IMG/VR virus record: IMGVR_UViG_3300049456_000119
Location: 1 to 47,449 of that record
Length of the DNA: 47,449 nucleotides
Strand: one strand, 5' to 3'
DNA from: a virus
The notes beneath the pieces are model-generated. The model was not told the origin of the DNA. It did not search any database and was given only the letters and a program-made list of their open reading frames with translations. Below, one piece after another: positions 14,903-36,798 of the stretch; within the stretch, counting starts at the first letter, position 1; every line of letters begins with the position of its first letter. The translations under genes and the position numbers were made by a program.

Positions 14903-16225
14903 ATGCCGATCGCGGACGTAGTCAATATTAGTATTTCGGTAAGCGGGGCCGGCCCGACGGGCGCAGGCTTCGGCGAGCCGATGATTGCTGCGTACCACAC
15001 GCACTACACGGATCGCGTGCGCGAGTATTCCTCTCTCGCGGGCATGGTCACGGACGGATTTGCGGTTACGGATCTGGCATATCTCGCCGCCTCGAATATC
15101 TTCGGCCAGACGCCTTCGCCCCCCTTCGTGAAGGTCGGCCGTCGCGCGACGCCGCTTGCGCAGGTCATCCACCTCACCTGTCTTTCGGTGAGCGCGCTCG
15201 ACACCTACGTCTTCCAGCTCCGATCGCCTGGCGGTTCGTGGAGCGTCGTCACCGTCGCCTCGACGGGAGTCGTCGCAACGGACGTCGCCACGATCAATAC
15301 GGCCGTTACCGCGCTCAGCATCACGGGACTGACCTGCACGCACAATGCGACGGACGTCATTTTGACGATGGCTACCGGCAAGTGGATCGACGTCAAGCCT
15401 GATGTCGTCTCTCACATGACGCTGGCGGATACGACCGCCGACGGCGGCGCGGCCCTCGCGGCCGACCTCGCGGCGATCCTCGCGGCGGATAGCAACTGGT
15501 ACGGCCTGCTTCTCGATACGCAGTCCCCGGCGGAAATCGCCGAGGCTGCCGTCTTCGCCGAGGCGAACAAGAAACTCTTCATTTGGAATTGCTCGGACTC
15601 CGCCATCGCGAACGCCGGGAGCACGACCGACATCGCGTATACGGAAAAGACCCTCGCGCATGCGCGCAGCGCCGGCCTCTTCGCGCAAACGCAGCTCCTC
15701 TGTTACTCGGCAGCGGCCTGGATGGGGCGCTTGTTCCCGACCGTCGCCGGCACGGAGAACTGGGCATTCAAGACCTTGTCGGGCGTGCCGGTCGACGCCC
15801 TCACGGACACGCAAGTTCACGCGGTCGAGAACAAGAACGCCTCGGTTTACACCGCGCTCTTCGGTCTCAATCTGACGCAGTTCGGCAAGCAGCCGGGCGG
15901 GCAGTGGATCGACGTCACGCGCGGGACCGACAACCTCACGAACGACATGGCGGTCGCCATCCTCGCTCTTCAGGCGAATAGCCTCCGCGTCCCTTACACG
16001 GACCTCGGCATAGACATGTACCGCTCGCAAATCACGGGCGTCCTCGCGTCGTACCAGGCGCGCGGGTTCCTCGCGCTGACGCCGGCCTTCTTCGTCTCTC
16101 TCCCGACGGCAGCGTCCGCGGGCGCCACGAACCGTGCGCTCCGCAACCTGCCGCTCGTCTCGTTCACCGCGCAGCTCGCGGGCGCAATCAATAGCACCAC
16201 GATCACTGGAGTCCTCGTCACATGA
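14903..16225 (+). CDS. Tail sheath protein, DUF3383-like
   Basis: 440 residues, starting MPIADVVNISISVSGAGPTG, the conserved opening of DUF3383 sheath proteins, followed by a variable inserted domain and a conserved C-terminal half (NASVYTALFGLNLTQFGKQP, YRSQITGVLASYQARGFLAL). The sheath contracts to drive the tube through the envelope. First gene of the plus-strand tail operon; the next gene overlaps by four bases. Confidence 0.85.
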   Translation: MPIADVVNISISVSGAGPTGAGFGEPMIAAYHTHYTDRVREYSSLAGMVTDGFAVTDLAYLAASNIFGQTPSPPFVKVGRRATPLAQVIHLTCLSVSALDTYVFQLRSPGGSWSVVTVASTGVVATDVATINTAVTALSITGLTCTHNATDVILTMATGKWIDVKPDVVSHMTLADTTADGGAALAADLAAILAADSNWYGLLLDTQSPAEIAEAAVFAEANKKLFIWNCSDSAIANAGSTTDIAYTEKTLAHARSAGLFAQTQLLCYSAAAWMGRLFPTVAGTENWAFKTLSGVPVDALTDTQVHAVENKNASVYTALFGLNLTQFGKQPGGQWIDVTRGTDNLTNDMAVAILALQANSLRVPYTDLGIDMYRSQITGVLASYQARGFLALTPAFFVSLPTAASAGATNRALRNLPLVSFTAQLAGAINSTTITGVLVT

Positions 16226-16656
16226 GCCTGAAACGATACGACGCGGCTCAGGTGACGATGGTCTTCATGGGCCTCCCCATTACTTCGGGTTTCGCTGAAG
16301 GCGAGTTCCTCACGATCGAGCAGGAAGCGCCGACGTACGAGACCGTGGTCGGCACCGACGGTGAAGTAAGCCGCAGCCGCACCAACAACCAGCATGCGAC
16401 CATCAAAGTCAAGCTGGCCCGGACGAGCGACGGAAACACTCTTTTCGGCGCATTGCATACGGCCGGCATCCTGGCGGCCAACGGCGCCGATATCGGACCG
16501 ATGCTCGTGCGCGACCGCGTGAGCGGTACGTGCGCGTACACGGCATCCAAGTGCTGGATTGCCGCGCCCCCGGCCGTGAGCTTCGACAATAAGGTCACTA
16601 TGGCCGAGTGGACCTTGGAATGTGCGGACCTGGTTCGGATCGACACCGGGTCGTGA
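16222..16656 (+). CDS. Tail tube protein, DUF3277-like
   Basis: 144 residues (MSLKRYDAAQVTMVFMGLPI). Follows the sheath with ATGA overlap. ITSGFAEGEFLTIEQEAPTY and the end MAEWTLECADLVRIDTGS fit the DUF3277 tube family. It forms the inner tube hexamers inside the sheath. Confidence 0.8.
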   Translation: MSLKRYDAAQVTMVFMGLPITSGFAEGEFLTIEQEAPTYETVVGTDGEVSRSRTNNQHATIKVKLARTSDGNTLFGALHTAGILAANGADIGPMLVRDRVSGTCAYTASKCWIAAPPAVSFDNKVTMAEWTLECADLVRIDTGS

Positions 16657-16710
16657 TCGTCTGATGACGGGCTGATTTGCGTGGACAGGCCCTAATAATT
16701 GAGGCTTACC

Positions 16711-17199
16711 ATGCGCGAAACAGTTCAGAAGACGATCGGCGATACGACCTACCACATCACGACGCTTGGCACGAAGGACGCGCGCCGAGTCGGTCGCCGG
16801 CTCGCGCGGGTCTTCGGGGTTTCGGCCGAGGCCGACCAGAAGGCCGCCAAGTTCTTCGAGGTCCTGACGGATGAGGAGCTCGACTTCCTTTGCGACACGT
16901 TCGCGAAGATGACGCAGATTTCGCCGGCCGATTCCGCTATTCACCCCGCGACCGGGCAGCCGACCGTCATGTTCGCGCTCGCTGCGAAGATGGAGGAGCA
17001 CTTCTCCGGGCACATGGGCCTTCTCATGCAATGGCTCAAGGCGTGCGTGGAGGTCAATTACGGTAATTTTTTAGGCGAGTTGGGGCCCGAGCTCCAATCG
17101 CTCATGGAGACGTTGGCGGCGAAGAGCGTGGAGACCGAGCTGTCGACGGCCCCGACTGGTTCATTTGGCGCCTCGTCCATGCGCGCCTCGGGAGCCTGA
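16711..17199 (+). CDS. Tail assembly chaperone, short form
   Basis: 162 residues from ATG 16711 (GAGG ten bases upstream; the in-frame TTG at 16699 lacks a site). Lies between tube and tape measure, where tailed phages encode a pair of chaperones for tape measure protein. MRETVQKTIGDTTYHITTLG and the helical body fit the G-like product. The reading continues past a TTTTTTA heptamer in the zero frame to a stop at 17199; a fraction of ribosomes is expected to shift. Confidence 0.75.
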   Translation: MRETVQKTIGDTTYHITTLGTKDARRVGRRLARVFGVSAEADQKAAKFFEVLTDEELDFLCDTFAKMTQISPADSAIHPATGQPTVMFALAAKMEEHFSGHMGLLMQWLKACVEVNYGNFLGELGPELQSLMETLAAKSVETELSTAPTGSFGASSMRASGA

Positions 17200-17300
17200 A
17201 CGAAGTAGCGAACGAGTGGTGTCTCGACGACGCGCTCGACGCGCACGAGATACTGGATCAAATCGAAGCGGCGGAAAAAGAAGCGAGGCAAAGTAAGTAA
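16711..17300 (+). CDS. Tail assembly chaperone, -1 frameshift long form
   Basis: Zero frame 16711-17073 (121 codons), then -1 frame from 17073 to TAA at 17298-17300, for 196 residues in all. The extension ends DWFIWRLVHARLGSLNEVAN and LDDALDAHEILDQIEAAEKE, a clear coding sequence with the Trp-Arg-Leu pattern of GT-type extensions and no start codon of its own. The -1 frame has a TAA at 17064-17066 immediately before the slippery run, so the shift must occur at 17067 or later. Confidence 0.75.
17067..17073 (+). other. Programmed -1 ribosomal frameshift site
   Basis: T TTT TTA in the zero frame of the chaperone gene (Asn-Phe-Leu codons AAT TTT TTA). It is a classic X XXY YYZ heptamer, a rare T run in this GC-rich genome, and lies exactly where the -1 frame opens. 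Confidence 0.75.
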
Positions 17301-17302
17301 AG

Positions 17303-18880
17303 GTGGCACTTCGGGATCTGTTGGTGAAGTTCTTGGTTCAAGTCGACGGCGAGAAAAAGCTGGAGTCGACCGATCTCGCTATTCGCCGGACGATCCTATC
17401 CGCGGAACGCCTCGGGAACACCTTCTCGCGTCTCGGCAGCTACCTCGTCGTTGGCACGATCGCGCGCGGGATTGAAAACTTCGTCGAAGGGATGGTCCAG
17501 CAAGCCATTCAATTGAAGGTCAATTCGGACCGCCTCGGTCTCACGTCGGACGAGCTTCAGAAGTACACCTACGTCGCCGACACGATGGGCATCAAGACGG
17601 AGCAGGTCGCCGTCGCGATGCGCTACTTCAACCGCACCGTCGGCGAGGCGGCGTTAGGGACGAAGAGCGCCGTGAAGGAGTTCGCGCTTCTCGGCATCAA
17701 CATCAAGGGCACGGACGGCAAGATTCGCCCACTGGGGGAGCTAGTCGGGGAGTTCTCCGACAAGCTCGCGAAGATGCCGGACCAGGCGACTCGCACCGCG
17801 CATGCGATGCGCGTGCTGGGGCGCGGCGGGTCGAGCGTGCTCCCCGAGTTGCAGAAGGGTGGTGCGGCCCTCAAGGAACTCTTCAAGGATGTCGATGAGC
17901 TCGGGGGCGGCTTCAACGGGAAGTTCTTGAAGCAGGCCGAAGAGACGAATCGGCAAATGAAGCGCCTCAAGTTCGGATGGCGCTCAATCTCCGTCGCCCT
18001 CGCGACCGAGGTACTTCCGTATTTCAAGCGATGGGTCGAGCGCGGTATCGAGACCGCGAAGACGCTCATCGACCTGGCGAAGAAGACCTACGGGTTCCGC
18101 ACGGCGCTCATGTTCCTCGCGACGGGCGTTGCGCTCTTCGCACTGAAGCTCGCCCAGCCGTTCGTCGCGCTCATCGCTCTTCTGACGGCCGCGTACCTCA
18201 TCTTCGACGACCTCTACACTTTTCTCGAGGGCGGAGACTCGGTCATCGGCCGATGGCTCGACAAGCTGGGGGGCAGTGGTACGGCGCTTCAATTCTGGCG
18301 CGACATGAAGGACGCCATCGCGAAGGTTGCCGAAGTCTTCTCGGGTATGGGCTTCTCGCTGAAGAGCATCGGTGAATCCTTCGCTAGCGCCATCCCACTG
18401 GGTATCCGTCTTCTCGGCGAGGCCCTCATTCGGATTACGACTCTGCTCGATCACGCAATTACGGGATTTCGCATCCTTTATCGTATCGCCTCCTTCGGGC
18501 AGGCGGGAACGAGCATCGAAGAGCTGACCGAAAGTCTCCAGAAGCGCATCGACGCCTACAGCAAGCTCGGGGCCACGTTCGACGAGCTCGCCGACCCGGC
18601 CGCCATCTCGCGTCGCGCGCACTTGCCCGGCGGTTCGGCCTTCGTCGGCCCGACGCAGGACCCGAACGCCGCGCCCCCGACGCAGGACCCGAACGCCGCG
18701 CCCCCGACGCCTATCAAGGTCGAGACGACGATTAACATCTCCGGCGCGGGCGACCCTTCCGGCGTGGCGAACAAGGTCAGCGACAAGATGAAGAAGCTCA
18801 TCGCCGACACGGTCGAAGAGCAACGCAATCGCGACACGTGGAATGCCGTGAGCGCGGGCGGATTGGTTACGGGGTACTGA
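17303..18880 (+). CDS. Tape measure protein
   Basis: 525 residues from GTG 17303, three bases after the chaperone long form ends. Sets tail length. Helical, with a phage-tail tape motif near the start (LGLTSDELQKYTYVADTMGI), two or three hydrophobic stretches (RTALMFLATGVALFALKLAQ and FVALIALLTAAYLIF) and a tandem PTQDPNAAP repeat near the C-terminus. At roughly 1.5 angstrom per residue it predicts a tail near 80 nm, short for a myovirus. Confidence 0.8.
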   Translation: MALRDLLVKFLVQVDGEKKLESTDLAIRRTILSAERLGNTFSRLGSYLVVGTIARGIENFVEGMVQQAIQLKVNSDRLGLTSDELQKYTYVADTMGIKTEQVAVAMRYFNRTVGEAALGTKSAVKEFALLGINIKGTDGKIRPLGELVGEFSDKLAKMPDQATRTAHAMRVLGRGGSSVLPELQKGGAALKELFKDVDELGGGFNGKFLKQAEETNRQMKRLKFGWRSISVALATEVLPYFKRWVERGIETAKTLIDLAKKTYGFRTALMFLATGVALFALKLAQPFVALIALLTAAYLIFDDLYTFLEGGDSVIGRWLDKLGGSGTALQFWRDMKDAIAKVAEVFSGMGFSLKSIGESFASAIPLGIRLLGEALIRITTLLDHAITGFRILYRIASFGQAGTSIEELTESLQKRIDAYSKLGATFDELADPAAISRRAHLPGGSAFVGPTQDPNAAPPTQDPNAAPPTPIKVETTINISGAGDPSGVANKVSDKMKKLIADTVEEQRNRDTWNAVSAGGLVTGY

Positions 18881-18881
18881 G

Positions 18882-19664
18882 ATGGGTTTTCAAGGCGCCG
18901 CTCGCGACCCCGTCGTCCCCGCGTTTCTCACGTGGGGCGACCCCGTCACCGATCCCGCGTACGCGCAGGGGCAGCTCGGCTTCGATGCCGTGCTCTCGGA
19001 GCACCATGACCTGACCGCGGAGGTCACGGACTACGCCGTCGAGCAAGGCGTGGCCGTCGTCGACCACGTGCGCCCGAACCCCGACCGCATCACCCTCGAG
19101 ACCTTCGTCACGAATACGCCGGTCTACTCGGTCGATGCGCAAGATCAACAACCGCTGACGCTCGACCTTCCGTACCCCGATCAGGCCCCTGCCGGTCCCG
19201 GCCCCCTTGGTAATCTTTTCGGTGGCGGCTTTCAGGCGGTTTCGAGCGCGCTGTCGCGCCCGACGCAGGCGAGCGCCAGCGTCATGCTGTTCGACGGCGA
19301 TATCGACTACGTTCAGAACGCGCTACTTCAGCTCCAATCTCTCAAGGACACCGCGACGCTCCTCACGATCATCACGCCGCGAAATACGTACTTCAACATG
19401 ATTCTCGAGCGCATCGCCATGCAGCGCGATCGCACGACGGGGACGAGCGGCGCGAACTTCTCGCTCGAGTTCCGGCAGATTCGCATCGTGTCATCGAGCG
19501 TCGTCGCGGCGCCGCTACCCACGATCCCTCGTGCCATTCCGACCGCGAACAAGGGCAAGAAAGACCCCACGGCCGCGCCGCAACCGAAGCAGAGCGTCGC
19601 GGCGCACCAGTGGGGGAATAGCATCGGCCCGTCCGCACAAGGCTTCCCGGCGCCCGCACCATGA
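18882..19664 (+). CDS. Dit-like baseplate protein
   Basis: 260 residues. FDAVLSEHHDLTAEVTDYAV and GVAVVDHVRPNPDRITLETF are the hallmark of the Dit-like N-terminal domain of simple contractile baseplates (Pam3 type). It forms the ring linking tube to hub. A Pro/Lys-rich tail (GKKDPTAAPQPKQSVAAHQW) follows the globular part. The next gene overlaps by four bases. Confidence 0.75.
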   Translation: MGFQGAARDPVVPAFLTWGDPVTDPAYAQGQLGFDAVLSEHHDLTAEVTDYAVEQGVAVVDHVRPNPDRITLETFVTNTPVYSVDAQDQQPLTLDLPYPDQAPAGPGPLGNLFGGGFQAVSSALSRPTQASASVMLFDGDIDYVQNALLQLQSLKDTATLLTIITPRNTYFNMILERIAMQRDRTTGTSGANFSLEFRQIRIVSSSVVAAPLPTIPRAIPTANKGKKDPTAAPQPKQSVAAHQWGNSIGPSAQGFPAPAP

Positions 19665-20035
19665 GCTACGTCGTCATCCCTACCGAGCTCACGGCGCTCT
19701 TCTGGACCCAAGTCACGACCTTGGACGGCGTGCCTTACTTGCTTACCTTCCGGTACAATTCGCGCGAGGCTTGCTATTACCTGCAAATCGACTCGAGCGA
19801 CGGCACGGTCAATTACGCGCAGGGGATCAAGCTCGTATCGAACTACCCGCTCCTCCAAAGCTACGGCGACAACCCGCCGGGGGAACTGCTCGCGATCTCC
19901 TTTAGCGCGGACGACTCTCCTGCGCAGGTCGGTGCCCTCGGGGACGGGCAGCGCGTCAACCTGATTTATGTCGAAGAGGCGGACCTTCTCGCGACCGGCT
20001 TCGAGCCCCAGCGGGACCCCGGCCCGTTTCAGTGA
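19661..20035 (+). CDS. Baseplate plug protein (Pam3 gp18-like)
   Basis: 124 residues (MSYVVIPTELTALFWTQVTT). The pattern LDGVPYLLTFRYNSREACYY, DGTVNYAQGIKLVSNYPLL and RVNLIYVEEADL fits the small baseplate plug family seen between Dit-like and hub genes. It likely seals the central channel before injection. Confidence 0.7.
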   Translation: MSYVVIPTELTALFWTQVTTLDGVPYLLTFRYNSREACYYLQIDSSDGTVNYAQGIKLVSNYPLLQSYGDNPPGELLAISFSADDSPAQVGALGDGQRVNLIYVEEADLLATGFEPQRDPGPFQ

Positions 20036-21003
20036 CCGACGGCGTCGCTAACACAATTGCGCAGCTTGTCGGAACGCAGCTTTTCAACCGCGCGCTCAAT
20101 CTGACGATCGGCTTCCCGAACGACCCGACGCTCGACGTCACGGCCCAGTTCAACGATGCGAACTCAAAGGGGCTCGACCTGTCCGGGATGGACGTCGACT
20201 TCGTCGTCGAAAAGTCACTCAAGCCTACCGAGCCGAACACGTGCGCCATCAAGGTCTACAACCTCTCCCCCGCGTCCCGCGAGAAGATATCGGGCAGCCA
20301 GTCCGGGGGCGTGCAGCACGCGCTCACGGTCCGCCTGGAGGCCGGCTACGTCGGCGGTGTGAGCCAAATCTATTTCGCCGAGGCGCGCTCGGCCTGGACG
20401 ACGTCGGACTCCCGCGGTACGTATGTGACGCACATCGAATCGACCGACACGATCGCCCGTGTGACGGGGGTGAAGCGCACGCGCAAACCGCAGCCGGGGG
20501 AGCTCACGGGGAACATCTACCGGACGATGGGGCCTCGCGTACCTCTCGCCGACGCCTTCCGCAGCATCACGGCCGCCCTAGGCATAGGCAACGGGAATCT
20601 CCAGACCGCGCTCGCGAACATGCACGGCTCGGGTCTCACGGCCGTCAACGGCTCGGCGCTCGTCGGGAACGGGGCGAGGCGCATGACAGACCTTTGCCGG
20701 TCGGCCGGCCTCGAGTGGTCGATTCAAGACGGCAACTTGCAACTCATCAATATCGGTGCGACTCTCTCGAGCACGAAAGCAATCCTCATCAGTGAGGACA
20801 CGGGTATGGAGGGCTCTCCGTCGGTCGACTCTCAAGGCGCTCTGTCGGTGAAGACGCGCTTGATCCCTGGACTCTCCCCGGGCGTGCTCGTATCAGTTCA
20901 ATCCAAATTCATCAATGGCGGCTACCGGGTCGACAAGATTCGCTACATCGGCTCGACCCGCGGCAAAGAGTGGAGCGCGCACTTCGACGCGATAAAATAC
21001 TGA
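20032..21003 (+). CDS. Baseplate hub protein (gp27/gp44-like)
   Basis: 323 residues from GTG 20032 (GTGA overlap). Contains VVEKSLKPTEPNTCAIKVYN, the beta-barrel opening of hub proteins, and LCRSAGLEWSIQDGNLQLIN from the second barrel, ending RVDKIRYIGSTRGKEWSAHF. Forms a trimer that carries the spike beneath the tube. Confidence 0.75.
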   Translation: MTDGVANTIAQLVGTQLFNRALNLTIGFPNDPTLDVTAQFNDANSKGLDLSGMDVDFVVEKSLKPTEPNTCAIKVYNLSPASREKISGSQSGGVQHALTVRLEAGYVGGVSQIYFAEARSAWTTSDSRGTYVTHIESTDTIARVTGVKRTRKPQPGELTGNIYRTMGPRVPLADAFRSITAALGIGNGNLQTALANMHGSGLTAVNGSALVGNGARRMTDLCRSAGLEWSIQDGNLQLINIGATLSSTKAILISEDTGMEGSPSVDSQGALSVKTRLIPGLSPGVLVSVQSKFINGGYRVDKIRYIGSTRGKEWSAHFDAIKY

Positions 21004-21004
21004 T

Positions 21005-21712
21005 ATGCCCCTCCCCCGCTCCCTTGCAGAAATCTTCGGCGCTTTCGGCGACGCACTCAAGGGTGACATTCGCAAATGCGTCCCCGCGACCATTACGACC
21101 GTCCACGCGGACCGGCAGACGGTTGACGTCCAGGTCGCGACGAACGAGCTTCTTTTCGACGACATGGGGAATGCTTTGTCGCTTCCGGCGCCCTCCTTCT
21201 CGGACGTCCCCCTCGCGTGTATGCGCGGCGGTGGCTTCTTCGTGTGGATGCCGGTTGCGGTAGGGGATGCGGTGCTGCTCGTATACAGCGACCAGTCTGC
21301 GGATACGTGGCGCTCGGGCGACGGTAGTCCTCAGGACCCCGGCTTCGCCGGTAAACACACGGCCGATTCGCCGTTCGCGATTCCCGCCTTCGCGCCGGAC
21401 GCGAAGATGCTTACGTCCCCCGCCGGCGACGCCGGCAAGGTCATCATCGGGAAAGACGGCGGCGCGGCGCAGATCAAGATCAGCGCGACGGATATCGAAC
21501 TCGGGGCGTCGGCCGGGGACGCAATCGCGCTCGCGAGCAAAGTCGATTCCGATTTCAAATCCCTAATCAATCAAATGGGTGCCGCCATGGTGCCCCCGAT
21601 TACTACATTGCCCCAGGTTGTGGCGGCGGTCGCGTCGCTTCAGGCTTTGCTCGTGGGCCCTCTGGCCGGCGGGATGCCGCCCGTCGGGTCGACGCTCGTC
21701 AAGTCGGGTTAA
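21005..21712 (+). CDS. Membrane-puncturing spike (Gp138-like)
   Basis: 235 residues. The N-terminal ~110 residues (CVPATITTVHADRQTVDVQV, GFFVWMPVAVGDAVLLVYSD) form the OB-fold of Gp138 spikes; the following GKVIIGKDGGAAQIKISATD is the start of a triple beta-helix needle. It pierces the outer membrane. Last gene of the first plus-strand tail operon. Confidence 0.8.
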   Translation: MPLPRSLAEIFGAFGDALKGDIRKCVPATITTVHADRQTVDVQVATNELLFDDMGNALSLPAPSFSDVPLACMRGGGFFVWMPVAVGDAVLLVYSDQSADTWRSGDGSPQDPGFAGKHTADSPFAIPAFAPDAKMLTSPAGDAGKVIIGKDGGAAQIKISATDIELGASAGDAIALASKVDSDFKSLINQMGAAMVPPITTLPQVVAAVASLQALLVGPLAGGMPPVGSTLVKSG

Positions 21713-21730
21713 CAATCGCCGAGCGCAGGG

Positions 21731-21763
21731 TTGACAATTAGCTGACACGAGCTAATTAGTAAG
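21731..21763 (+). promoter_or_regulatory. CTAATTAGTAAG-class promoter before the integration operon
   Basis: TTGACA (21731-21736), 16 bp, then TAATTA (21753-21758) with an imperfect dyad AATTAGCT-GACACG-AGCTAATT. The 3' part GCTAATTAGTAAG runs straight into ATG 21764. One of four similar elements; this copy also has a consensus sigma-70 -35 box. A binding dyad over the promoter suggests repression. Confidence 0.6.
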
Positions 21764-21943
21764 ATGCAGGACGCCGAGAAGAAACTCAACGGTCGCCGCG
21801 CCGACCGCGCCGCGCTAGTACAGACGTCCATGGTCGCCATTACCGAGGGGCAGATCCTTCGCGACGGAGACGGAAACATTCTCGGCCGCAAACCGAATAG
21901 AGCGCAGCGTCGGGCGAATGCCGCCGCGAAGAGGAAGCCGTGA
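21764..21943 (+). CDS. Small basic protein, first gene of integration operon
   Basis: 59 residues from ATG 21764 directly after the promoter element, with no clear Shine-Dalgarno other than GTAAG. Reads MQDAEKKLNGRRADRAALVQ and ends in a basic tail (RAQRRANAAAKRKP). Possibly DNA binding. Overlaps the next gene by GTGA. Confidence 0.55.
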   Translation: MQDAEKKLNGRRADRAALVQTSMVAITEGQILRDGDGNILGRKPNRAQRRANAAAKRKP

Positions 21944-22170
21944 CGGTTACTCAACAAATGAGCGCCTACAGAACGCAGTGCTTACTATCGACGAGTGACA
22001 ATCCCGCGTCGCCGGTGCGTTTGCGCATGATGGCAGCGAAGCCGAATGAGGACGGCATCAAGGCCGGCTTTCACCAGGACCTCTCGTGCGATGAAGCACG
22101 CGCGCTCGCGGCGGACTTGCAACAAGCGGCGCGATGGGTCGAGTCGGGTGCGTGGACGGTGACGACGTGA
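21940..22170 (+). CDS. Small hypothetical protein
   Basis: 76 residues from GTG 21940 with GAGGAAGCC upstream. Beta then helical sequence (VRLRMMAAKPNEDGIKAGFH, LSCDEARALAADLQQAARWV). No recognised domain. Coupled to genes on both sides by GTGA overlaps. Confidence 0.55.
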   Translation: MTVTQQMSAYRTQCLLSTSDNPASPVRLRMMAAKPNEDGIKAGFHQDLSCDEARALAADLQQAARWVESGAWTVTT

Positions 22171-22277
22171 TCCCCACCCTCCTCATCGGCGCGACGATCT
22201 GTTGGTGTTGGCGCTCGCCGGTTGGGTTGCTCCTCATCCTCGGGGCGCTGGCGCTGACCGTGTGCGGTGCGCCGTGA
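22167..22277 (+). CDS. 36-residue membrane protein
   Basis: GTG 22167 overlaps the previous TGA; its own TGA overlaps the next GTG. Sequence MIPTLLIGATICWCWRSPVG then LLLILGALALTVCGAP, giving two short hydrophobic segments with a Cys/Trp-rich turn. Function unknown. Confidence 0.5.
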   Translation: MIPTLLIGATICWCWRSPVGLLLILGALALTVCGAP

Positions 22278-22504
22278 AGACGAAGGCAGAGAGTGATTTG
22301 TTGACCTCGTTTGCGCGCGACGTGTACGGGCTCGAGCGTCAACGAGGGGAGAGCGACGCGCAGCTCAAGAAGCGGTGCAACATCGTGACCGGCGACCGTA
22401 CGTTCCCGATATGGTGGCAAGTGCCGACCTCGGCTGCGCCGCCGCCCCCCTTCAACGAGTGCCCGAAGTGCGGGGCGCCCCCGCCGTGCCAGTATCACTC
22501 CTGA
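22274..22504 (+). CDS. Small protein with CxxC zinc-knuckle-like end
   Basis: 76 residues from GTG 22274 (GTGA overlap). Helical N-terminus (KTKAESDLLTSFARDVYGLE) and a C-terminal ECPKCGAPPPCQYHS, a possible zinc site. No family recognised. Ends 18 bases into the HTH gene. Confidence 0.55.
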   Translation: MKTKAESDLLTSFARDVYGLERQRGESDAQLKKRCNIVTGDRTFPIWWQVPTSAAPPPPFNECPKCGAPPPCQYHS

Positions 22505-22857
22505 CCCCCGCTGACGTCGCCGCTCGTCTCGGGTGCTCACGCGCGTACGCCTACGTGGTCGTGCGCTCGCTCCCGCACGTGCGCGTCGGCAGGCTCCTTC
22601 GCGTGACGGAAGAGGTCGTGTGTGCTTACCTAGAGCGATGCGAACGCCTACCCCCTATACCCTTGTCCGCGTCGATGGTTCGCCCTTCTGGTACGTGTAC
22701 TTCCTCGACCGGGCCGGGTCTCGCGTCCGGAAGTCGACGAAGGAGCACTCCAAAGAGCGCGCGCATGCAGTGGCTCGGGAACTCGAGCGACGGTACGGAG
22801 ATCCGACCTACAACGCCGCGAACGCAACGACCCTCTCGGATGCCGCCCGCAGCCTGA
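22486..22857 (+). CDS. Excisionase-like HTH protein
   Basis: From GTG 22486 the frame reads LLTPADVAARLGCSRAYAYV then SLPHVRVGRLLRVTEEVVCA, a winged HTH of the excisionase/MerR type (HTH_17). Excisionases bend att DNA and favour excision. After about 55 residues the frame runs inside the integrase gene and gives low-complexity sequence, so the functional protein may be the first half only, or a -1 shift could join it to the integrase frame. Start is uncertain because no strong ribosome site is visible. Confidence 0.6.
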   Translation: MPVSLLTPADVAARLGCSRAYAYVVVRSLPHVRVGRLLRVTEEVVCAYLERCERLPPIPLSASMVRPSGTCTSSTGPGLASGSRRRSTPKSARMQWLGNSSDGTEIRPTTPRTQRPSRMPPAA

Positions 22858-23666
22858 AGGAGCACCTTGAAAACACCGGACGCTCTTCTGAAACCCGAGC
22901 CTTCTACGGCGTCAAGCTCGGCCATGTGGGCCGCGTTCTCGGAACGGATTGCCGGCTTGCGGACGTCACGGCGCCCGCCGTGGACGGGTACATCCGATTA
23001 CGTCGAGCTGAAGGTGCGGCGCGCTACACGATCGCCAAAGAGCTGACCGCGCTGCGGATGCTCCTGAAGGTCGCGCGTCGCCGCGGGGAGTTCGACCGGG
23101 AAGTCTCCCAGGTCATGCCCGTAGGCTTCGCGACCGGTTATAAGCCGCGCATGCGGCGGTTGACCCGCGGGGACGCGTGGGCCTTGATCGCCATGCTCCC
23201 GGAGCCCTGCGGTCGGTATGCGGCCTTCGTGTGCGCGACGACGGCGCGGGACTCCGCGGTCGGCCGCGCCATCGGTTCAGACCGCTTGGCCACGGGCATC
23301 CGCGTGCGCGATGCGAAGACCCGTGCCGCTGCGCGCGTGGTACCCTTCACCGCCGTGACGGCGGCGTTCGCCGACTTCGCCTTCCTGAACGTCGCTCCGG
23401 ACGCCGCCGTCGCACCCGGGCTCGGGAGCGTGCGCCACGCGTTCGATCGCGCGTGCGCGCGCCTCGGCTTCCCGCACACGAGCCCCAACGACCTCCGGCG
23501 GTCCGTGGCCCACTGGCTACTAGAGGAGAGCGTACCGCGCGACGTGGTCGCGGCGTTCATGGGGCACACGTCGACCAAGATGCTTGACTCCGTCTACGGG
23601 AAGCTCGATCCGACGCAGATCGGCGAAGCTATTGCGCGGGCCGTTTCGATGCGCGCGCCAGAGTGA
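22638..23666 (+). CDS. int: Tyrosine integrase
   Basis: 342 residues from ATG 22638. N-terminal arm-type sequence (FWYVYFLDRAGSRVRKSTKE) and a SAM-like core-binding domain (about 55-150) precede the catalytic domain. Arg box TTARDSAVGRA, Lys in DAKTRAAARVVPF, box II DLRRSVAHWLL, GHTS and nucleophile Tyr in MLDSVYGKL are present. The first residue of H-x-x-R is Asn (PNDLRR), a tolerated but unusual change. The attP-like tRNA segment lies 250 bp downstream. It integrates the phage into the host chromosome, probably at tRNA-Phe. Confidence 0.85.
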   Translation: MRTPTPYTLVRVDGSPFWYVYFLDRAGSRVRKSTKEHSKERAHAVARELERRYGDPTYNAANATTLSDAARSLKEHLENTGRSSETRAFYGVKLGHVGRVLGTDCRLADVTAPAVDGYIRLRRAEGAARYTIAKELTALRMLLKVARRRGEFDREVSQVMPVGFATGYKPRMRRLTRGDAWALIAMLPEPCGRYAAFVCATTARDSAVGRAIGSDRLATGIRVRDAKTRAAARVVPFTAVTAAFADFAFLNVAPDAAVAPGLGSVRHAFDRACARLGFPHTSPNDLRRSVAHWLLEESVPRDVVAAFMGHTSTKMLDSVYGKLDPTQIGEAIARAVSMRAPE

Positions 23667-23814
23667 GGATGCCGCTCTTGCACATGTCGATATCTCGGCG
23701 CATCTCTCGGCTCTCCAGCTCGAGGATTTCGATGCGGTCGACGAGCGATGCGATCAGCTCGGCCAGTTTCGGATGCTCGGGGCCGATGAGGATACGGATG
23801 TGCGCGGGGTCCAT
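23629..23814 (-). CDS. Small coiled-coil protein antisense to int end
   Basis: 61 residues from ATG 23814: MDPAHIRILIGPEHPKLAEL, then a coiled-coil helix (VDRIEILELESREMRRDIDM). Opposite strand to the integrase, overlapping its last 38 bases. Weak ribosome site (TTGAGC). Could be a regulator of recombination; may also not be expressed. Confidence 0.45.
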   Translation of the reverse strand: MDPAHIRILIGPEHPKLAELIASLVDRIEILELESREMRRDIDMCKSGILTLARASKRPAQ

Positions 23815-23915
23815 GTGCTCAAGCGTAGCAGATCGAGTTGGGACGCATTTGGGAAAACCGTCCAGAATACTGTTCACGCAGTGGACGCAGTGCACGACGA
23901 GACCCCGGAAATTCG

Positions 23916-23962
23916 TGCGCAGGGACGGAATCGAACCGCCGACACGGGGATTTTCAGTCCCG
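23916..23962 (-). other. attP: Probable attP core: 3' half of tRNA-Phe(GAA)
   Basis: Minus strand, 23962 to 23916, reads as the anticodon arm (GGGA-CTGAAAA-TCCC, anticodon GAA), variable loop CGTGTC, T arm (GGCGG-TTCGATT-CCGTC) and 3' acceptor strand of tRNA-Phe. The 5' half is absent, so it is not a gene. Phages whose integrase targets a tRNA carry just such a fragment to rebuild the gene on integration. Location beside int supports it. Confidence 0.8.
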
Positions 23963-24065
23963 ACAAAACCTCCGGGAAAGTGCGTAACAGCAGAGGTTTT
24001 GTAACGGAGTTGGGATGAAGCCGGGCGTTCCGGTGCAGGTCTTTCTAGGAAACCTCCCCGCGACA

Positions 24066-24086: not shown

Positions 24087-24479
24087 ATGAGTGCTTTTGC
24101 GCAAACAACGACCGGGGACCTCGACATTTCCACGGGGAATCTCGTCGTTCGGAAGGACATCCCGCAGGTCACCGCGTGGAAGCTCAGCAACCTATTCGGT
24201 CTTTTCAAGGGCGAGTGGTTCCGTGATTCGCGCGTAGGCGTGCCGTACTTCCAGTACGTGCTCGTGTGGAACCCGAACCTGAAGGTCATCGGGTCGATTT
24301 TCAAGCGGGTCTGCATGGCGGCACCCGGCGTCCAAGGGGTACTGAACATGGGGCTGAACTTCCTGCCGCAAACGCGGTCGCTCAACGTAGCGATCACGGT
24401 CCAGACGAATGAGGGCGCGGTCCTCGTCGGCGGCCCGGGTAACCCCTTCATCATCGCGCAAGTCGCGCCGGGGGTTTGA
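24087..24479 (+). CDS. gp25-like baseplate protein
   Basis: 130 residues from ATG 24087, 14 bases after CTAAACT; the upstream part of the frame passes through the attP segment and is not used. MSAFAQTTTGDLDISTGNLV and ALKVIG-type central part, ending GNPFIIAQVAPGV, fit small gp25/W-like wedge proteins encoded just before the J/gp6 protein. Assignment rests mainly on order. Confidence 0.6.
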   Translation: MSAFAQTTTGDLDISTGNLVVRKDIPQVTAWKLSNLFGLFKGEWFRDSRVGVPYFQYVLVWNPNLKVIGSIFKRVCMAAPGVQGVLNMGLNFLPQTRSLNVAITVQTNEGAVLVGGPGNPFIIAQVAPGV

Positions 24480-25663
24480 TGGGAGCCCCGGGATTGACCG
24501 CTACGGGGTTCGTCGCCACGACCGTGGATGAAGAGGTTGCCGAGCTCAACTCGCTCTTCCTCGCCAACGTGGACGGGGGGCTCGACCTCGCGGCCGATCA
24601 ACCGTTCGGGCAGGTTGTTGCGATCTTCGCGGAGAAGTTCGCGGAGATCATGGAGCTCGGGGCGACGGTCTACAACGCCGTGAATCCGAACGCCGCGGAG
24701 GGCCAACTCCTGGTCAACGATTGCGCGCTCTCCGGCACGATTCCCCAGGTTGCGACCTACTCGACCGTCGTCGCGAACCTCACGCTTTCGGCGGGTACGA
24801 CCGTCACCGCGGGCGCGACCGCCATCGTCGCGAATCAACCGGCCAACGTGTGGGTCCTCATGGCCAACGCCGTGAACTCGGGCGGCTCGACCGCGGTCAT
24901 CACCGCGACCTTCCGCTCGCAGAATCCGGGTCCCTTCGTCGCGAACGCGAACACGCTCACCGTCATCGGTACCCCGACGATCGGGTGGTTGGCTGTTGGG
25001 AACTCGGTCGACGCAGTCCAAGGCGTCTCCGCCGACACCGATGCGACGCTCCGCGCGCGCCGGCAGGTCGAGCTCGCGGGCGAAGGCTCCGGGGACCTCG
25101 ACGCCATCCGCTCGGCCGTCATCAAGGTCGCGGGTGTTCTTCAGGTGCTCGTCTTCGAGAACACCGGGCTGAGTACCGACTCGACTGGCCTCCCCGGAAA
25201 GGCATTCCGCGTCGTGATTTGGGACGGTCCGGGGCACTCCGCTTCGAACAACGCCGTCGCGCAAGCGATTTGGGATCACAAACCCTCAGGCATTCTCGCC
25301 TTCGGTGGGACTACGGGGACCGCGACCGACTCGCAGGGTACTTTGCAAAGCATCTCTTTCGATCGCGCCGTTCAACTAAGGATTTACGCGACCGTCACGA
25401 CGACGCCCGCGCTCCTCACCACGGCGCAGACCCTCGCCGTCAAGGCATCGATCGCGGCGTACGGCGCGGCGAACTTCAACCTCGGCACGAGCATCATCGC
25501 TCTGCCCCTGCGCGCGAGCGCGATCGTTACCGGCGTGACGACGGACGTGCCGTTCTTCTTCTTCGGGCCGGCCCCGTTCCCGGTGAACTTCAGCAACCTC
25601 GGCGTGGCGGGCGGCACCATCGCCACGATCGCGACCCCCGACATCACCGTCAACGGGGTCTGA
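24479..25663 (+). CDS. Baseplate wedge, gp6/J-like
   Basis: 394 residues from ATG 24479, overlapping the TGA before it. Contains the baseplate J sequence character: DTDATLRARRQVELAGEGSG, then an insertion domain, NAVAQAIWDHKPSGILAFGG, and a beta C-terminus. It forms the wedge ring that triggers sheath contraction. It is followed after one base by the next wedge gene. Confidence 0.8.
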   Translation: MGAPGLTATGFVATTVDEEVAELNSLFLANVDGGLDLAADQPFGQVVAIFAEKFAEIMELGATVYNAVNPNAAEGQLLVNDCALSGTIPQVATYSTVVANLTLSAGTTVTAGATAIVANQPANVWVLMANAVNSGGSTAVITATFRSQNPGPFVANANTLTVIGTPTIGWLAVGNSVDAVQGVSADTDATLRARRQVELAGEGSGDLDAIRSAVIKVAGVLQVLVFENTGLSTDSTGLPGKAFRVVIWDGPGHSASNNAVAQAIWDHKPSGILAFGGTTGTATDSQGTLQSISFDRAVQLRIYATVTTTPALLTTAQTLAVKASIAAYGAANFNLGTSIIALPLRASAIVTGVTTDVPFFFFGPAPFPVNFSNLGVAGGTIATIATPDITVNGV

Positions 25664-28166: not shown

Positions 28167-28243
28167 CGTTCCGCCCGCACGTTGAAGTAGAGCGAGATCA
28201 GGATGAGAAGTAACCACGCGCCCCAGAGATAGACGTCGATCAC
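28163..28243 (-). CDS. 26-residue membrane protein
   Basis: GTG 28243 overlaps the pentapeptide stop, and its TGA overlaps the RuvC start. Sequence MIDVYLWGAWLLLILISLYF then NVRAER: one membrane helix with a basic end. Exactly fills the gap between the two genes. Confidence 0.6.
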   Translation of the reverse strand: MIDVYLWGAWLLLILISLYFNVRAER

Positions 28244-29175
28244 GGCGACACCGGACGGGGCAAGTGCCTACCATCGAAGAGCGCAACGAAGGTCGCGACA
28301 AGGGCGCGCTTCGTTTCGGGGGCATCCGCTTGACGGTGTATATCCAGTCCCGCGGCCATGGGGCAATCGGTCCACGAGTGAGATCCCCACGCGGCGATAG
28401 CGCGGGAGGTTGCCTCGGAGGTATCGCAGAGTCCCGCGAGCGGATCGGATTGCCACTGGGCAAGGGTGCGACCGTCGGGGAGATTGGCGTTCTGGAAATC
28501 GGCGCCCTGGAGATTGGCGCCCGTGAGATTGGCGCCACGGAAATCGGCGCCCTGGAGATCGGCGTCCTGGAGATTGGCGCCCTGGAGATTGGCGCCCCGG
28601 AGATTGGCGCCCCGGAGATTGGCGCCACGGAGACTGGCGCCCGTGAGATCGGCGTTCTGGAGACCGGCGCCCCCGAGATCGTCGTTCTGGAGATGGGTGT
28701 ACCGTAGATTGGCGTCCTGGAGATTGGCGCCCGTGAGATTGGCGCCACGGAGATCGGCGTCCTGGAGATCGGCGTTCTGGAGATAGGCGTCCTGGAAATC
28801 GGCGCCCGTGAGATGGGCGCCTCGGAGATCGGCGCCCTGGAGATTGGCGCCACGGAGATGGGTGTCCCGTAGATTGGCGCCACGGAGATCGGCGTCCTGG
28901 AAATTGGCGTCCTGGAAATTGGCTCCCCGGAGACGGGCGCCCGTGAGACGGGCGCCCGTGAGATCGGCGTACCGTAGATCGGCGTCCTGGAGATCGGCGC
29001 CCTGGAGATCGACGCCCTGGAGAGTGGCGCCCTGGAGATGGGCGCCCTGGAGACGGGCGCCCCCGAGATCGGCGCCCCGGAGATTGGCTCCCTGGAGATA
29101 GGCGCCCTGGAGATTGTCCCCGGGGTGCATGAATACGATTTCGTGAGTGAGGCGATGTTTGATGGTTACGGGCAT
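28240..29175 (-). CDS. Pentapeptide-repeat protein with C-terminal domain
   Basis: 311 residues from ATG 29175. N-terminal MPVTIKHRLTHEIVFMHPGD, then about 43 A(D/N)LQ/R-type repeats (residues ~20-230) and a non-repeat C-terminal domain (RTLAQWQSDPLAGLCDTSEA to the end). The repeat part forms a long quadrilateral beta-helix, in some family members a DNA mimic that protects or inhibits gyrase. Controlled by a CTAATTAGTAAG element touching its start codon and cotranscribed with a RuvC-like nuclease, which favours a DNA-related role. Confidence 0.85.
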   Translation of the reverse strand: MPVTIKHRLTHEIVFMHPGDNLQGAYLQGANLRGADLGGARLQGAHLQGATLQGVDLQGADLQDADLRYADLTGARLTGARLRGANFQDANFQDADLRGANLRDTHLRGANLQGADLRGAHLTGADFQDAYLQNADLQDADLRGANLTGANLQDANLRYTHLQNDDLGGAGLQNADLTGASLRGANLRGANLRGANLQGANLQDADLQGADFRGANLTGANLQGADFQNANLPDGRTLAQWQSDPLAGLCDTSEATSRAIAAWGSHSWTDCPMAAGLDIHRQADAPETKRALVATFVALFDGRHLPRPVSP

Positions 29176-29914: not shown

Positions 29915-31831
29915 GTGGCGGAACCCCAAGAAAAAGCAATTCCGATTTTACCGCAGCGCATAATGGACGTCGGGGGCCCGCAAGGCGCTACGTCGCTGGG
30001 CCCCGCGGGCCCGGAGCTCCCCGCCCGCGCGCACTACATGTCCGGCGTTCGCGCCGACAGTCTTTTCGACGGCTTAATTGGCGGGTGCGGCGGCAACATG
30101 ACCGGCGGCGGATGGTCCAACCCCGTGACGGGGATGGGAACGTTCGGCCGCGACAAGGTGATGCAGGGGAGCTATGCCGAGTCCTACCGCATCGACGACT
30201 CGCAACTCGCCGCGTTGTACAACGGCAACGACATCGCGCAACGCATCATCAACACCAAGCCGCGCGAGATGTTCCGGCGCGGGTGGTTGCTTGTGGTGCC
30301 GCAAGCGGACGACGAGACGGGCGACCCGACATCGGGTTCCGCCAACGGTTCCGGACCCGGTACCGAAAGCGGCCCGGCCGCGCCGGGGTCTCCGCTCGTC
30401 GGCCCCCTTGGCGACCCGCCCGACGGCGTGAAACCGCCCGTCGCCCCCGCGGGCGAGAAGGCGAATATCTCGGATCCGATGGGGACGACGCTCGCGGTAA
30501 CGCCGCCGAGCAACGTGCAACCGAAGGTGCCGTCCGCGGTCAAGCCGCCGCAGAACACGCCCGTGCAAGGCAAGAAGTCGAAGGGCTCCGCCCCGACCGA
30601 CCAACCCGCGGGCGCGGCACTTGCGAAGAACATTGAAGCCTACGCGACGCGGCTCGGGCACAAGGAGCGCTTTCTCGAGGGGGCCATCTTCGGGCGCGCG
30701 TACGGCGGAGGGTTCGTCATCATGGGGATCGACGACGGCCTCGACGTGGCCGCGCCGGTCGACGAAGCAAACATCCGGTCGATCGCTTACCTCACGTGGA
30801 TCGACCGCCGGTTCATCTTCGCGTCGACATGGTACGCGGAGATTGGCCCCAAGTACGGGCAGGTCGAGACGTGGGAAATCATCAACCCCTTCGGCGGCCA
30901 GAGCAACACACGCATCCACGAGTCGCGCGTGATCCGCTTCGACGGCGCGCCGGTCGACTTCCTCATGCGGCGGCGACTGCTCGGGTGGACGCTTTCGGTC
31001 TTACAGGCCCCGTACGACACGATGCGGCAGTTCGATCAGTCGTTCCAGTCGATCGCGAACCTCATGGCCGACATGAGCCAAGCGGTGATGACGATCAACG
31101 GCTTGATGCAAATGATCTCCAACGATCAGGCGACGCTCAAGACGCGCATGCAAATGGTCGACATGTCCCGCAGCTCGGGGCGTATGGTCTACCTCGACGC
31201 GGAAAATGAGAAGTTCGAGCGCGTCGCTACGCCACTGACCGGGGTCGCGGACACGCTCGAGATGCAAATGCTCCGGCTCGCGAGCGCGGCCGAGGTGCCT
31301 GTCGCCATCCTCTTCGGGCGCGAGCCGTCGGGCCTGAACGCCACGGGGGACGCCGACTTCCGGCGCTTCTACGATACGATCGCGGGCGAGCAGCGCACGA
31401 TTCTGGAGCCGAAGCTTCTTCGGTTGTACACGTTGATCTGTCTCGCGAAGGACTCGCCAACGGGCGGCGTGATGCCCGCGCGCGGCCTCGAGTTCGTCTG
31501 GCACAAGCTCTACGAACCGAGCGAGCTCGAACAGTCGACCATCCGCTTCAACATGGCGCAGGCGGACGACCTGTACATCAACAACGGTACATTGCTACCA
31601 TCCGAAGTGGCACTATCGCGCTTCCGCAACGGCGACCTGCACCTCGACACCGAGATTCAGACCAACCTACGTACGGCGGCGTTGACTTCGGTACAGCTTG
31701 CCCCCGAAGGCTCGGCAAAGGCCGATGCCGAAGCGCAGCAAGCCAAGGACCTGATCAAAGCGAAGGGTGATGCGTCGCCAGGCGCGGCGTCGGGCAAGCC
31801 GGGCGCGAAGCCTCCGGCGAAAGCGGCGTAA
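29915..31831 (+). CDS. Portal protein (DUF1073-type)
   Basis: 638 residues from GTG 29915. Contains LAALYNGNDIAQRIINTKPR, a disordered Pro/Gly/Lys-rich insert (about 130-235), then GRAYGGGFVIMGIDDGLDVA, IHESRVIRFDGAPVDFLMRR and VAILFGREPSGLNATGDADF, all typical of DUF1073 phage portals. Dodecameric DNA gateway at one capsid vertex. DUF1073 portals are sometimes auto-named after Acb1 anti-CBASS proteins; the whole length and position here mean portal. The long insert is unusual. Confidence 0.85.
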   Translation: MAEPQEKAIPILPQRIMDVGGPQGATSLGPAGPELPARAHYMSGVRADSLFDGLIGGCGGNMTGGGWSNPVTGMGTFGRDKVMQGSYAESYRIDDSQLAALYNGNDIAQRIINTKPREMFRRGWLLVVPQADDETGDPTSGSANGSGPGTESGPAAPGSPLVGPLGDPPDGVKPPVAPAGEKANISDPMGTTLAVTPPSNVQPKVPSAVKPPQNTPVQGKKSKGSAPTDQPAGAALAKNIEAYATRLGHKERFLEGAIFGRAYGGGFVIMGIDDGLDVAAPVDEANIRSIAYLTWIDRRFIFASTWYAEIGPKYGQVETWEIINPFGGQSNTRIHESRVIRFDGAPVDFLMRRRLLGWTLSVLQAPYDTMRQFDQSFQSIANLMADMSQAVMTINGLMQMISNDQATLKTRMQMVDMSRSSGRMVYLDAENEKFERVATPLTGVADTLEMQMLRLASAAEVPVAILFGREPSGLNATGDADFRRFYDTIAGEQRTILEPKLLRLYTLICLAKDSPTGGVMPARGLEFVWHKLYEPSELEQSTIRFNMAQADDLYINNGTLLPSEVALSRFRNGDLHLDTEIQTNLRTAALTSVQLAPEGSAKADAEAQQAKDLIKAKGDASPGAASGKPGAKPPAKAA

Positions 31832-31845
31832 CACTAGCGCCCGAG

Positions 31846-32358
31846 TCACTTGTTCACCCGGTACCATGCGCGCACGTCGCGCGGCGTAGGACCGAGGGGC
31901 GCGGACAAGTCGATCTTCCAGTACATGAGCGCCCCGGGGTGCTTGTAATCGTCGTCCAGACCCATCGCGTGCCCTAGCTCGTGCGCCGCGACCTCCGTGA
32001 GTTCGTCCCCGACCATCACGTCGACGGCTAGGCCGATGAACAGGTGGCCGTCCGGTTGAGGGTTATATAGGCCGACCACGTTATGGTGCTTGCCAGTTCG
32101 GCGCTCGAACTCCGCACTCAGGTCCGCTTCGGTCCCCGGGAGGATGCGGATTAGCTTGTTCTCTCCGCGATGTACGACAAAAAAGAACGCAAGGCCGGGG
32201 ATGGCGTCCTCCCACAAATGCGCGCCGCGCTCGACCTGGCGACGCTGCGCCGGAGTAAAGTCTGCACTAATTTCTACATCGTAGACCCGATGAAGGTCGG
32301 GACCGGCGTTCCAGGCCGACCACCCGAACATCGCGGCGTAAATTAGCTGCCGGAGCAC
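31846..32358 (-). CDS. Metzincin-like zinc protease
   Basis: 170 residues from GTG 32358. Residues 126-136 HELGHAMGLDD give His126-Glu127-x-x-His130 and Asp136 as third ligand, as in snapalysin-type enzymes, and ALMY (Met145) gives the Met-turn. The N-terminus LRQLIYAAMFGWSAWNAG is a short hydrophobic stretch, possibly a signal or anchor. Likely degrades host envelope or extracellular protein, or processes virion proteins. Converges with the portal gene. Confidence 0.8.
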   Translation of the reverse strand: MLRQLIYAAMFGWSAWNAGPDLHRVYDVEISADFTPAQRRQVERGAHLWEDAIPGLAFFFVVHRGENKLIRILPGTEADLSAEFERRTGKHHNVVGLYNPQPDGHLFIGLAVDVMVGDELTEVAAHELGHAMGLDDDYKHPGALMYWKIDLSAPLGPTPRDVRAWYRVNK

Positions 32359-35906: not shown

Positions 35907-36109
35907 GCGCGCCTCGGCGCCGGGGGCAACGGATCGAGCACCAACGGTGCGGTTGTCCGGAAAACTTCGTGAATCTGATAGACCACGAACACGCGCGAGT
36001 CGTACGACATCGACATCTCTTTCGCGCGCGTCACGGCTTGCTGGCGGGTAACCGAAGTCACGAGTCCGCCTTCGCTCATTACGATGTACTCGAGGTCGGG
36101 AGCGATCAT
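35903..36109 (-). CDS. Small hypothetical protein
   Basis: 68 residues (MIAPDLEYIVMSEGGLVTSV). Alpha/beta pattern with RVFVVYQIHEVFRTTAPLVL, similar in type to other small phage proteins. ATGA overlaps on both sides. Confidence 0.6.
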   Translation of the reverse strand: MIAPDLEYIVMSEGGLVTSVTRQQAVTRAKEMSMSYDSRVFVVYQIHEVFRTTAPLVLDPLPPAPRRA

Positions 36110-36798
36110 CGCACCGCCCTCCGTCGCGCGACGTAGTCCGTCGCCTCTTTGGTCAGATCGTCGCGCTTCCCCGTCCAGAACTCTCCGCGGTCTTTCGCCG
36201 CGAGCTTCCGCACGAACGTGCGAAGCGCGAGCATGTCGCGCTTGCGGTCGATTGCATCCTCGGGCGCATCCGGCACGGTCGCGATGGCGGCCGGCAGGCA
36301 GGAGGATATCCGCTTCGTGCGGTCGAACGGTTGCGTGCGGGGGTCGATCGCCATGAAGGTGGCCTGAGCCGCCTGCGCGCGCTTCATTGCGCTCGGGGCG
36401 ATGCCGACCTCGACGGGCTCCGCCTCGCGCCCGTGCTGCGCGTAGAAGGCCGCCATCGCGTCTTGCTGCGCGCGGGGTAAGTCAGCATCCTTCGGTCGCG
36501 AGATGGGCGTGGCGTGGCGGAGAACGAGCTGCATTTCGTGCCGCATCTTGAAGAACGCGAGCGTCGAGAAAGCCCCGCGCTCGGGGTCCCACTCGGCGAT
36601 GGCGGCCAAGAGGCCGAGGCGCGCGGCCTGGAAGATGTCGTCGCGGAGGTTGTCGATCGCGTACTGCGTCCGACCGAGGAAAGCGCTCGCGAAGCGCTGC
36701 ACGAGCGGCTCGTTCTCGGCCGCCATCTTAGCCATGAGGCGCGACTTTTTCACGCGGCTCGTGGCCGTCTTCCAGGCGTCGAAATCGATTCGGTTCAT
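36106..36798 (-). CDS. Sigma-70 region 2-like protein
   Basis: 230 residues. Residues 51-95 (LRDDIFQAARLGLLAAIAEW, DPERGAFSTLAFFKMRHEMQ) match sigma region 2.1-2.4: D-D-x-x-Q-x-x-x-x-G-L, the D-P-E-R-G turn and F-S-T-x-A. Region 4 is not clear; the C-terminal LRTFVRKLAAKDRGEFWTGK may be a degenerate form. Likely a phage sigma factor redirecting host RNA polymerase to phage promoters, perhaps to CTAAACT or CTAATTAGTAAG sites. It could instead be a phage-borne transcription-modulating fragment. Confidence 0.7.
   Translation of the reverse strand: MNRIDFDAWKTATSRVKKSRLMAKMAAENEPLVQRFASAFLGRTQYAIDNLRDDIFQAARLGLLAAIAEWDPERGAFSTLAFFKMRHEMQLVLRHATPISRPKDADLPRAQQDAMAAFYAQHGREAEPVEVGIAPSAMKRAQAAQATFMAIDPRTQPFDRTKRISSCLPAAIATVPDAPEDAIDRKRDMLALRTFVRKLAAKDRGEFWTGKRDDLTKEATDYVARRRAVR

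Follow-up and report, generated by a model that had tools for sequence, protein, structure and literature searches.

A tRNA-Phe 3' half between the baseplate genes of an uncultivated phage is very probably its attachment site

Introduction

Why would a virus carry half of a tRNA gene beside an integrase gene, in the midst of its tail genes? The question is raised by a stretch of 47,449 nucleotides (IMG/VR record IMGVR_UViG_3300049456_000119, positions 1 to 47,449; hereafter the window). We conclude that the half gene is very probably the core of attP in a temperate phage with a contractile tail, a site that its tyrosine integrase would recombine with a tRNA-Phe(GAA) gene of the host, in its 3' half. 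The type of site is ordinary, and its genomic address is unusual.

Results

The core lies on the minus strand at 23915-23961, comprises 47 nt, and corresponds to positions 28-74 (the 3' half) of tRNA-Phe(GAA). Read directly from 23961 to 23915, the minus strand is GGGACTGAAAATCCCCGTGTCGGCGGTTCGATTCCGTCCCTGCGCAC. In standard tRNA numbering, GGGA (28-31) leads into the anticodon loop CTGAAAA with anticodon GAA, followed by TCCCC (39-43), the variable loop GTGTC, a T stem (GGCGG/CCGTC) enclosing TTCGATT, CCTGCGC (66-72), A73, and then CGA where CCA is expected. C27 faces C43, so the tRNA identity of the core starts at 28. An earlier note on this DNA had recognized the same loop and minus-strand tRNA-Phe(GAA) 3' half. 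Its placement at 23916-23962 was one base off, as the core shared with L083 (a locus in IMG/VR contig 3300031240_000006, an environmental phage whose whole record, G001, has 57,690 bases) is 23915-23961. The T arm that the note called perfect does contain TTCGATT, but the stem consists of four Watson-Crick pairs and one G-U.

Neither a complete tRNA (ARAGORN) nor an Rfam match at gathering score is present in the window, as expected for half a gene. The 5' half is absent, as the earlier note had said; direct reading and the ARAGORN result rule out a full tRNA with an overlooked 5' half. Chance resemblance is ruled out by shuffling: a 33-base tRNA-Phe pattern, allowing up to three mismatches, matches the window once and 100 shuffles not at all. 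RNA secondary structure of the half-tRNA is unremarkable (z -1.1) and carries no weight in the argument. Adjoining the core is a 10-bp inverted repeat, ACAAAACCTC / GAGGTTTTGT (23963-24002).

A tyrosine integrase of 342 aa is encoded upstream on the plus strand (22638-23666; ATG at 22638, open frame from 22533), with matches to PF00589 (E 3.9e-9), PF02899 and phrog_1 (E 1.2e-30). It reads toward the core, and 248 bp separate its stop at 23666 from the core edge at 23915, in agreement with the roughly 250 bp first proposed. R239, R322, H345 and Y355 of the open frame, which we take to be the catalytic positions, are invariant between the window and L083. Searched by tblastn, the integrase has no match among phages or plasmids. 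As a single sequence it returns five viral-contig matches, all short and distant, and as a two-sequence alignment it returns L083's record alone. Overlapping the integrase start is a plus-strand gene for an HTH_17 protein (22492-22857; start codon provisional), which matches PF12728 at E 9.5e-6 and 26.2 bits, slightly under the curated cut-off of 27, and has a homolog (46%) upstream of the integrase gene in L083. This protein is likely the excisionase, or recombination directionality factor.

CACTGCGT occurs twice in direct orientation, 9 bp apart (23876-23892, minus strand), forming possible arm-type integrase sites. The copies occur on one side of the core only, and L083 has a related, imperfect pair at the matching distance. 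We estimate that such a pair is about at chance level for 8-mers in a stretch of this kind, and a role as arm-type sites is only suggestive.

What does the related phage add? The order of HTH gene, integrase gene and half-tRNA in L083 equals that in the window, with the half in the same orientation and between the integrase and gp25 genes, and homologs of the HTH protein, spike, hub, gp25, J, sheath, tube and tape measure occur in the same order. The integrases are 66-67% identical at the amino acid level. Over the core (L083 2172-2218), 46 of 47 positions are identical, compared with 12/47 and 11/47 in the two 47-base flanks (ungapped). A core that is kept while its flanks diverge, next to a homologous integrase, is what an attP constrained by its integrase predicts, and this conservation in a syntenic relative supports the earlier proposal that the tRNA-Phe(GAA) half is attP.

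A relaxed tRNA-Phe 3' pattern matches at least 119 loci in viral contigs. Among the matches listed (119 loci), 79 have a 5' half, as called by a D-arm motif, 31 lack one, and 9 end too near the match for a call. Since many phages carry tRNA-Phe genes, with the D-arm motif upstream in 79 of the 119 loci listed, the half could be the decayed remnant of a phage-borne gene that lost its 5' portion and has no role in integration. We regard this as very improbable: a decaying half would not keep its near identity while integrase DNA fell to 68% and the flanks became nearly random, and the half-tRNA stands beside an integrase gene in both phages.

The attP reading, by comparison, places the site among familiar ones. 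Of the 31 half-only records among the matches listed (L083 included), 24 hold a PF00589 match. The Islander survey reports anticodon-centred attP sites for 2083 islands and T-stem-region sites for 1836 (PMC4383910), and typical cores are given as 30-45 bp with the tRNA 3' half included (PMC10865867). The 47-nt core next to an integrase gene fits the usual arrangement outlined in these sources. As in the anticodon-centred 3'-fragment sites described there by Islander, the fragment sits beside a tyrosine integrase gene, has no 5' half, and begins its identity at the anticodon stem. The shared block differs in having no CCA, which is present in 30 of the 31 halves among the matches listed and absent from L083 and the window. 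Taken with the 31 half-only loci of the 119 listed, the published figures indicate that the site is of a known, ordinary kind.

The maps of the two contigs bear on whether the site is integrated. G001 and the window are circularly permuted: window positions 34.3-35.9 kb match G001 at 0.4-1.9 kb, the window from 36.1 kb onward matches G001 from 57.6 kb downward, and the window's ends fall inside G001, so that the ends of either contig map to the interior of the other. With phage genes on either side of the core in both contigs, the site looks unintegrated, an attP and not an attL or attR. Half-tRNAs do also mark the distal ends of tRNA-integrated islands and prophages (PMC4383910), but an attL or attR with host DNA on one side is extremely improbable where, in either phage, the core is flanked left and right by tail genes and the contig ends are internal. 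In a third phage contig (G002), a tRNA-Phe half adjoins a terminase-like gene and is accompanied by an HTH-like frame and an integrase of 32% identity (HTH and terminase read from the ORF list).

If the site is attP, the integrase (22638-23666) would recombine it with the corresponding half of the host's tRNA-Phe(GAA) gene. Strand exchange would most likely occur inside the anticodon loop (23951-23957, minus strand), because the identity block begins at 28, just 5' of that loop; anticodon-centred attP sites are a known class (PMC4383910). The phage block 28-74 would join the host 5' half and, since the phage brings these positions, a working tRNA-Phe would be rebuilt at the integrase-side junction, with the displaced host 3' half going to the far junction. 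The HTH protein upstream would likely act in excision. We infer that the phage enters lysogeny; against this, no CI-type repressor was seen among the ORFs scanned, which are part of the window's ORFs. A short minus-strand ORF (23629-23815, no Pfam match) is convergent with the integrase gene and overlaps its 3' end. After integration, this ORF would follow the rebuilt tRNA-Phe and share its direction.

Which host gene would be the target? By pairing, the acceptor strand CCTGCGC calls for a tRNA-Phe gene starting GCGCAGG. The earlier note expected an identical core in a host tRNA-Phe gene and named the absence of such a host as refuting its reading. In genome_contigs (84,980 species), and for that collection alone, this absence is literally what was found: an exact 46-mer and the relaxed CCTGCGCA pattern had 0 matches in scans run with no positive control. 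These scans required exact anticodon and T loops, so a host with a different T loop would escape them. Likewise, no integrated copy, lysogen or attL/attR junction was found in our searches. The nearest gene seen is an Azospirillum tRNA-Phe (L140, L141), which starts GCCCAGG and matches at 45 of 47 positions, one of the two differences lying in the acceptor stem. Azospirillum is also the commonest genus among the 68 plasmid records returned by blastn, and the CCTGCGC strand occurs in none of the three plasmid records read (L140-L142). In viral contigs, the exact pattern has 0 matches (the window's own record may be excluded there), a shorter pattern finds L083 and L103, and a looser acceptor pattern finds L083 plus L128, the latter a full tRNA. 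That the CCTGCGCA acceptor strand is common to two phages and missing from genome_contigs suggests a real but unsampled host lineage, rather than a sequence in error.

The missing acceptor match would also suit tRNA-dependent lysogeny, known in actinobacteriophages (PMC10865867), in which a short core leaves the host tRNA broken and a phage-encoded tRNA compensates, but this is scarcely credible here, as the window, a contig that may be incomplete, contains no full-length tRNA by ARAGORN and the 47-nt core extends past position 73, compared with a core of about 10 bp in that description.

The attP site lies within the baseplate genes. Sheath, tube, tape measure and hub genes (14903-21003, plus strand; phrog_205, tape-measure PHROGs, phrog_196) are collinear with those of L083. 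A spike-position gene (21005-21712, plus strand; PF18352; homologs in L083, 55%, and L145, 57%) follows the hub, as in reference phages, and forms the upstream border of the cassette. Downstream, 125 bp past the core, begins a gp25-like wedge gene (24087-24479, plus strand; phrog_120, E 3.8e-9 for the frame from 24015; 62% to L083 and 50% to L145), followed by a J-like wedge gene (24476-25663, plus strand; phrog_6, E 8.6e-34). The spike/gp25 junction spans 2,374 bp in the window, with the HTH gene, integrase gene and attP, and 2,080 bp in L083. The latter includes an opposite-strand ORF (L083 1570-2091, plus strand; no Pfam match) for a lipoprotein-like, PDAA-rich protein, which is located between attP and gp25 and may be cargo carried at the end of the prophage. 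About 780 bp lie between the spike and HTH genes of the window (21713-22491), compared with only about 100 bp in L083, and hold two small ORFs (76 and 100 aa) with no Pfam match.

In the five reference phages read and in L145 this junction is closed. The spike gene overlaps the next gene by 1 bp in PSKM, AsaM-56 and Meifeng and by 4 bp in Aaphi23, and is separated from it by 10 bp in Bitten. These five reference phages were hand-picked from match lists, and in PSKM, Meifeng and Bitten the gene before J carries no wedge annotation and is taken as the wedge by its place. A hub alignment search returned four loci, one of which is L083's own record. In L145, spike and gp25 nearly abut and there is no integrase match. 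L146 and L147 have the spike and no match for gp25, J or integrase; lacking gp25 matches, they are uninformative on this junction. The closed junction in the five references and L145 indicates that the cassette was gained exactly there, or lost in the others. The myophage Aaphi23 (NC_004827; int, cI and cro annotated) shares the hub-spike-gp25-J order and an HTH gene beside int, but its int lies apart from the tail run, at the end of the record, whereas in the window HTH gene, integrase gene and attP stand between spike and gp25. An attP amid tail genes is an unusual address for an ordinary type of site. We found no description of an attP inside a tail operon in literature searched by title and abstract start, a weak test of absence.

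Discussion

Could integration at this address affect the tail genes? Among the identified tail genes, the plus-strand run extends from the sheath (14903) to at least J and two frames beyond (to 27702). It does not reach the portal gene (29915-31831) unbroken, because a minus-strand gene for a pentapeptide-repeat protein (28240-29175; PF00805, E 7.9e-95), with strong internal DNA repeats at 28473-29118, opposes the tail direction before it. By self-comparison, tandem-like DNA repeats also occur near the contig's left end (1-345 and 2492-2910). On the other side of the portal gene is a small matrixin-like metallopeptidase gene (31846-32358, minus strand; PF00413, 25.8 bits against a cut-off of 24).

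Integration at attP would separate the sheath-to-spike genes from gp25-J, moving the two blocks to opposite ends of the prophage. If sheath to J were one transcript, integration would cut it and excision restore it. We raise, as an unlikely idea, that integration itself could switch off virion assembly, with gp25, J and later genes severed from a promoter upstream of the sheath until excision. If true, lysogeny would be locked structurally, and the baseplate genes would need no repressor. The pentapeptide-repeat gene ahead of the portal gene and, in L083, the opposing lipoprotein-like ORF between attP and gp25 both speak against a simple single transcript. Between attP and gp25, our promoter and terminator scan detected no sigma-70-like site, which is weak evidence: such a scan says little for a phage that has an apparently unsampled host and encodes its own sigma-70 region 2 protein (36106-36798, minus strand; PF04542, phrog_351), and whose late promoters may not be host-type.

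In mycobacteriophages with integration-dependent immunity, attP reportedly lies inside the repressor gene. The position of attP similarly ties integration to gene control in those systems (PMC4557955), but involves a repressor gene, whereas the window's attP is between tail genes. Helper-embedded PICIs (PMC10111431) demonstrate that phage late genes can be delayed by DNA integrating into them, and stay interrupted until excision much as proposed here. This precedent makes the operon-split idea plausible, though unproven. In PICIs, however, a satellite enters a late gene of its helper, whereas here the phage's own attP lies between its own late genes and any regulatory effect is hypothetical.

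If the site is attP, an integrase, a candidate excisionase and a target sequence are now available for an uncultivated phage lineage, and the tRNA-Phe sequence of the core is a handle for the host search. The baseplate-gene address offers a clean test case for whether phages may dismantle a late operon by their own integration.
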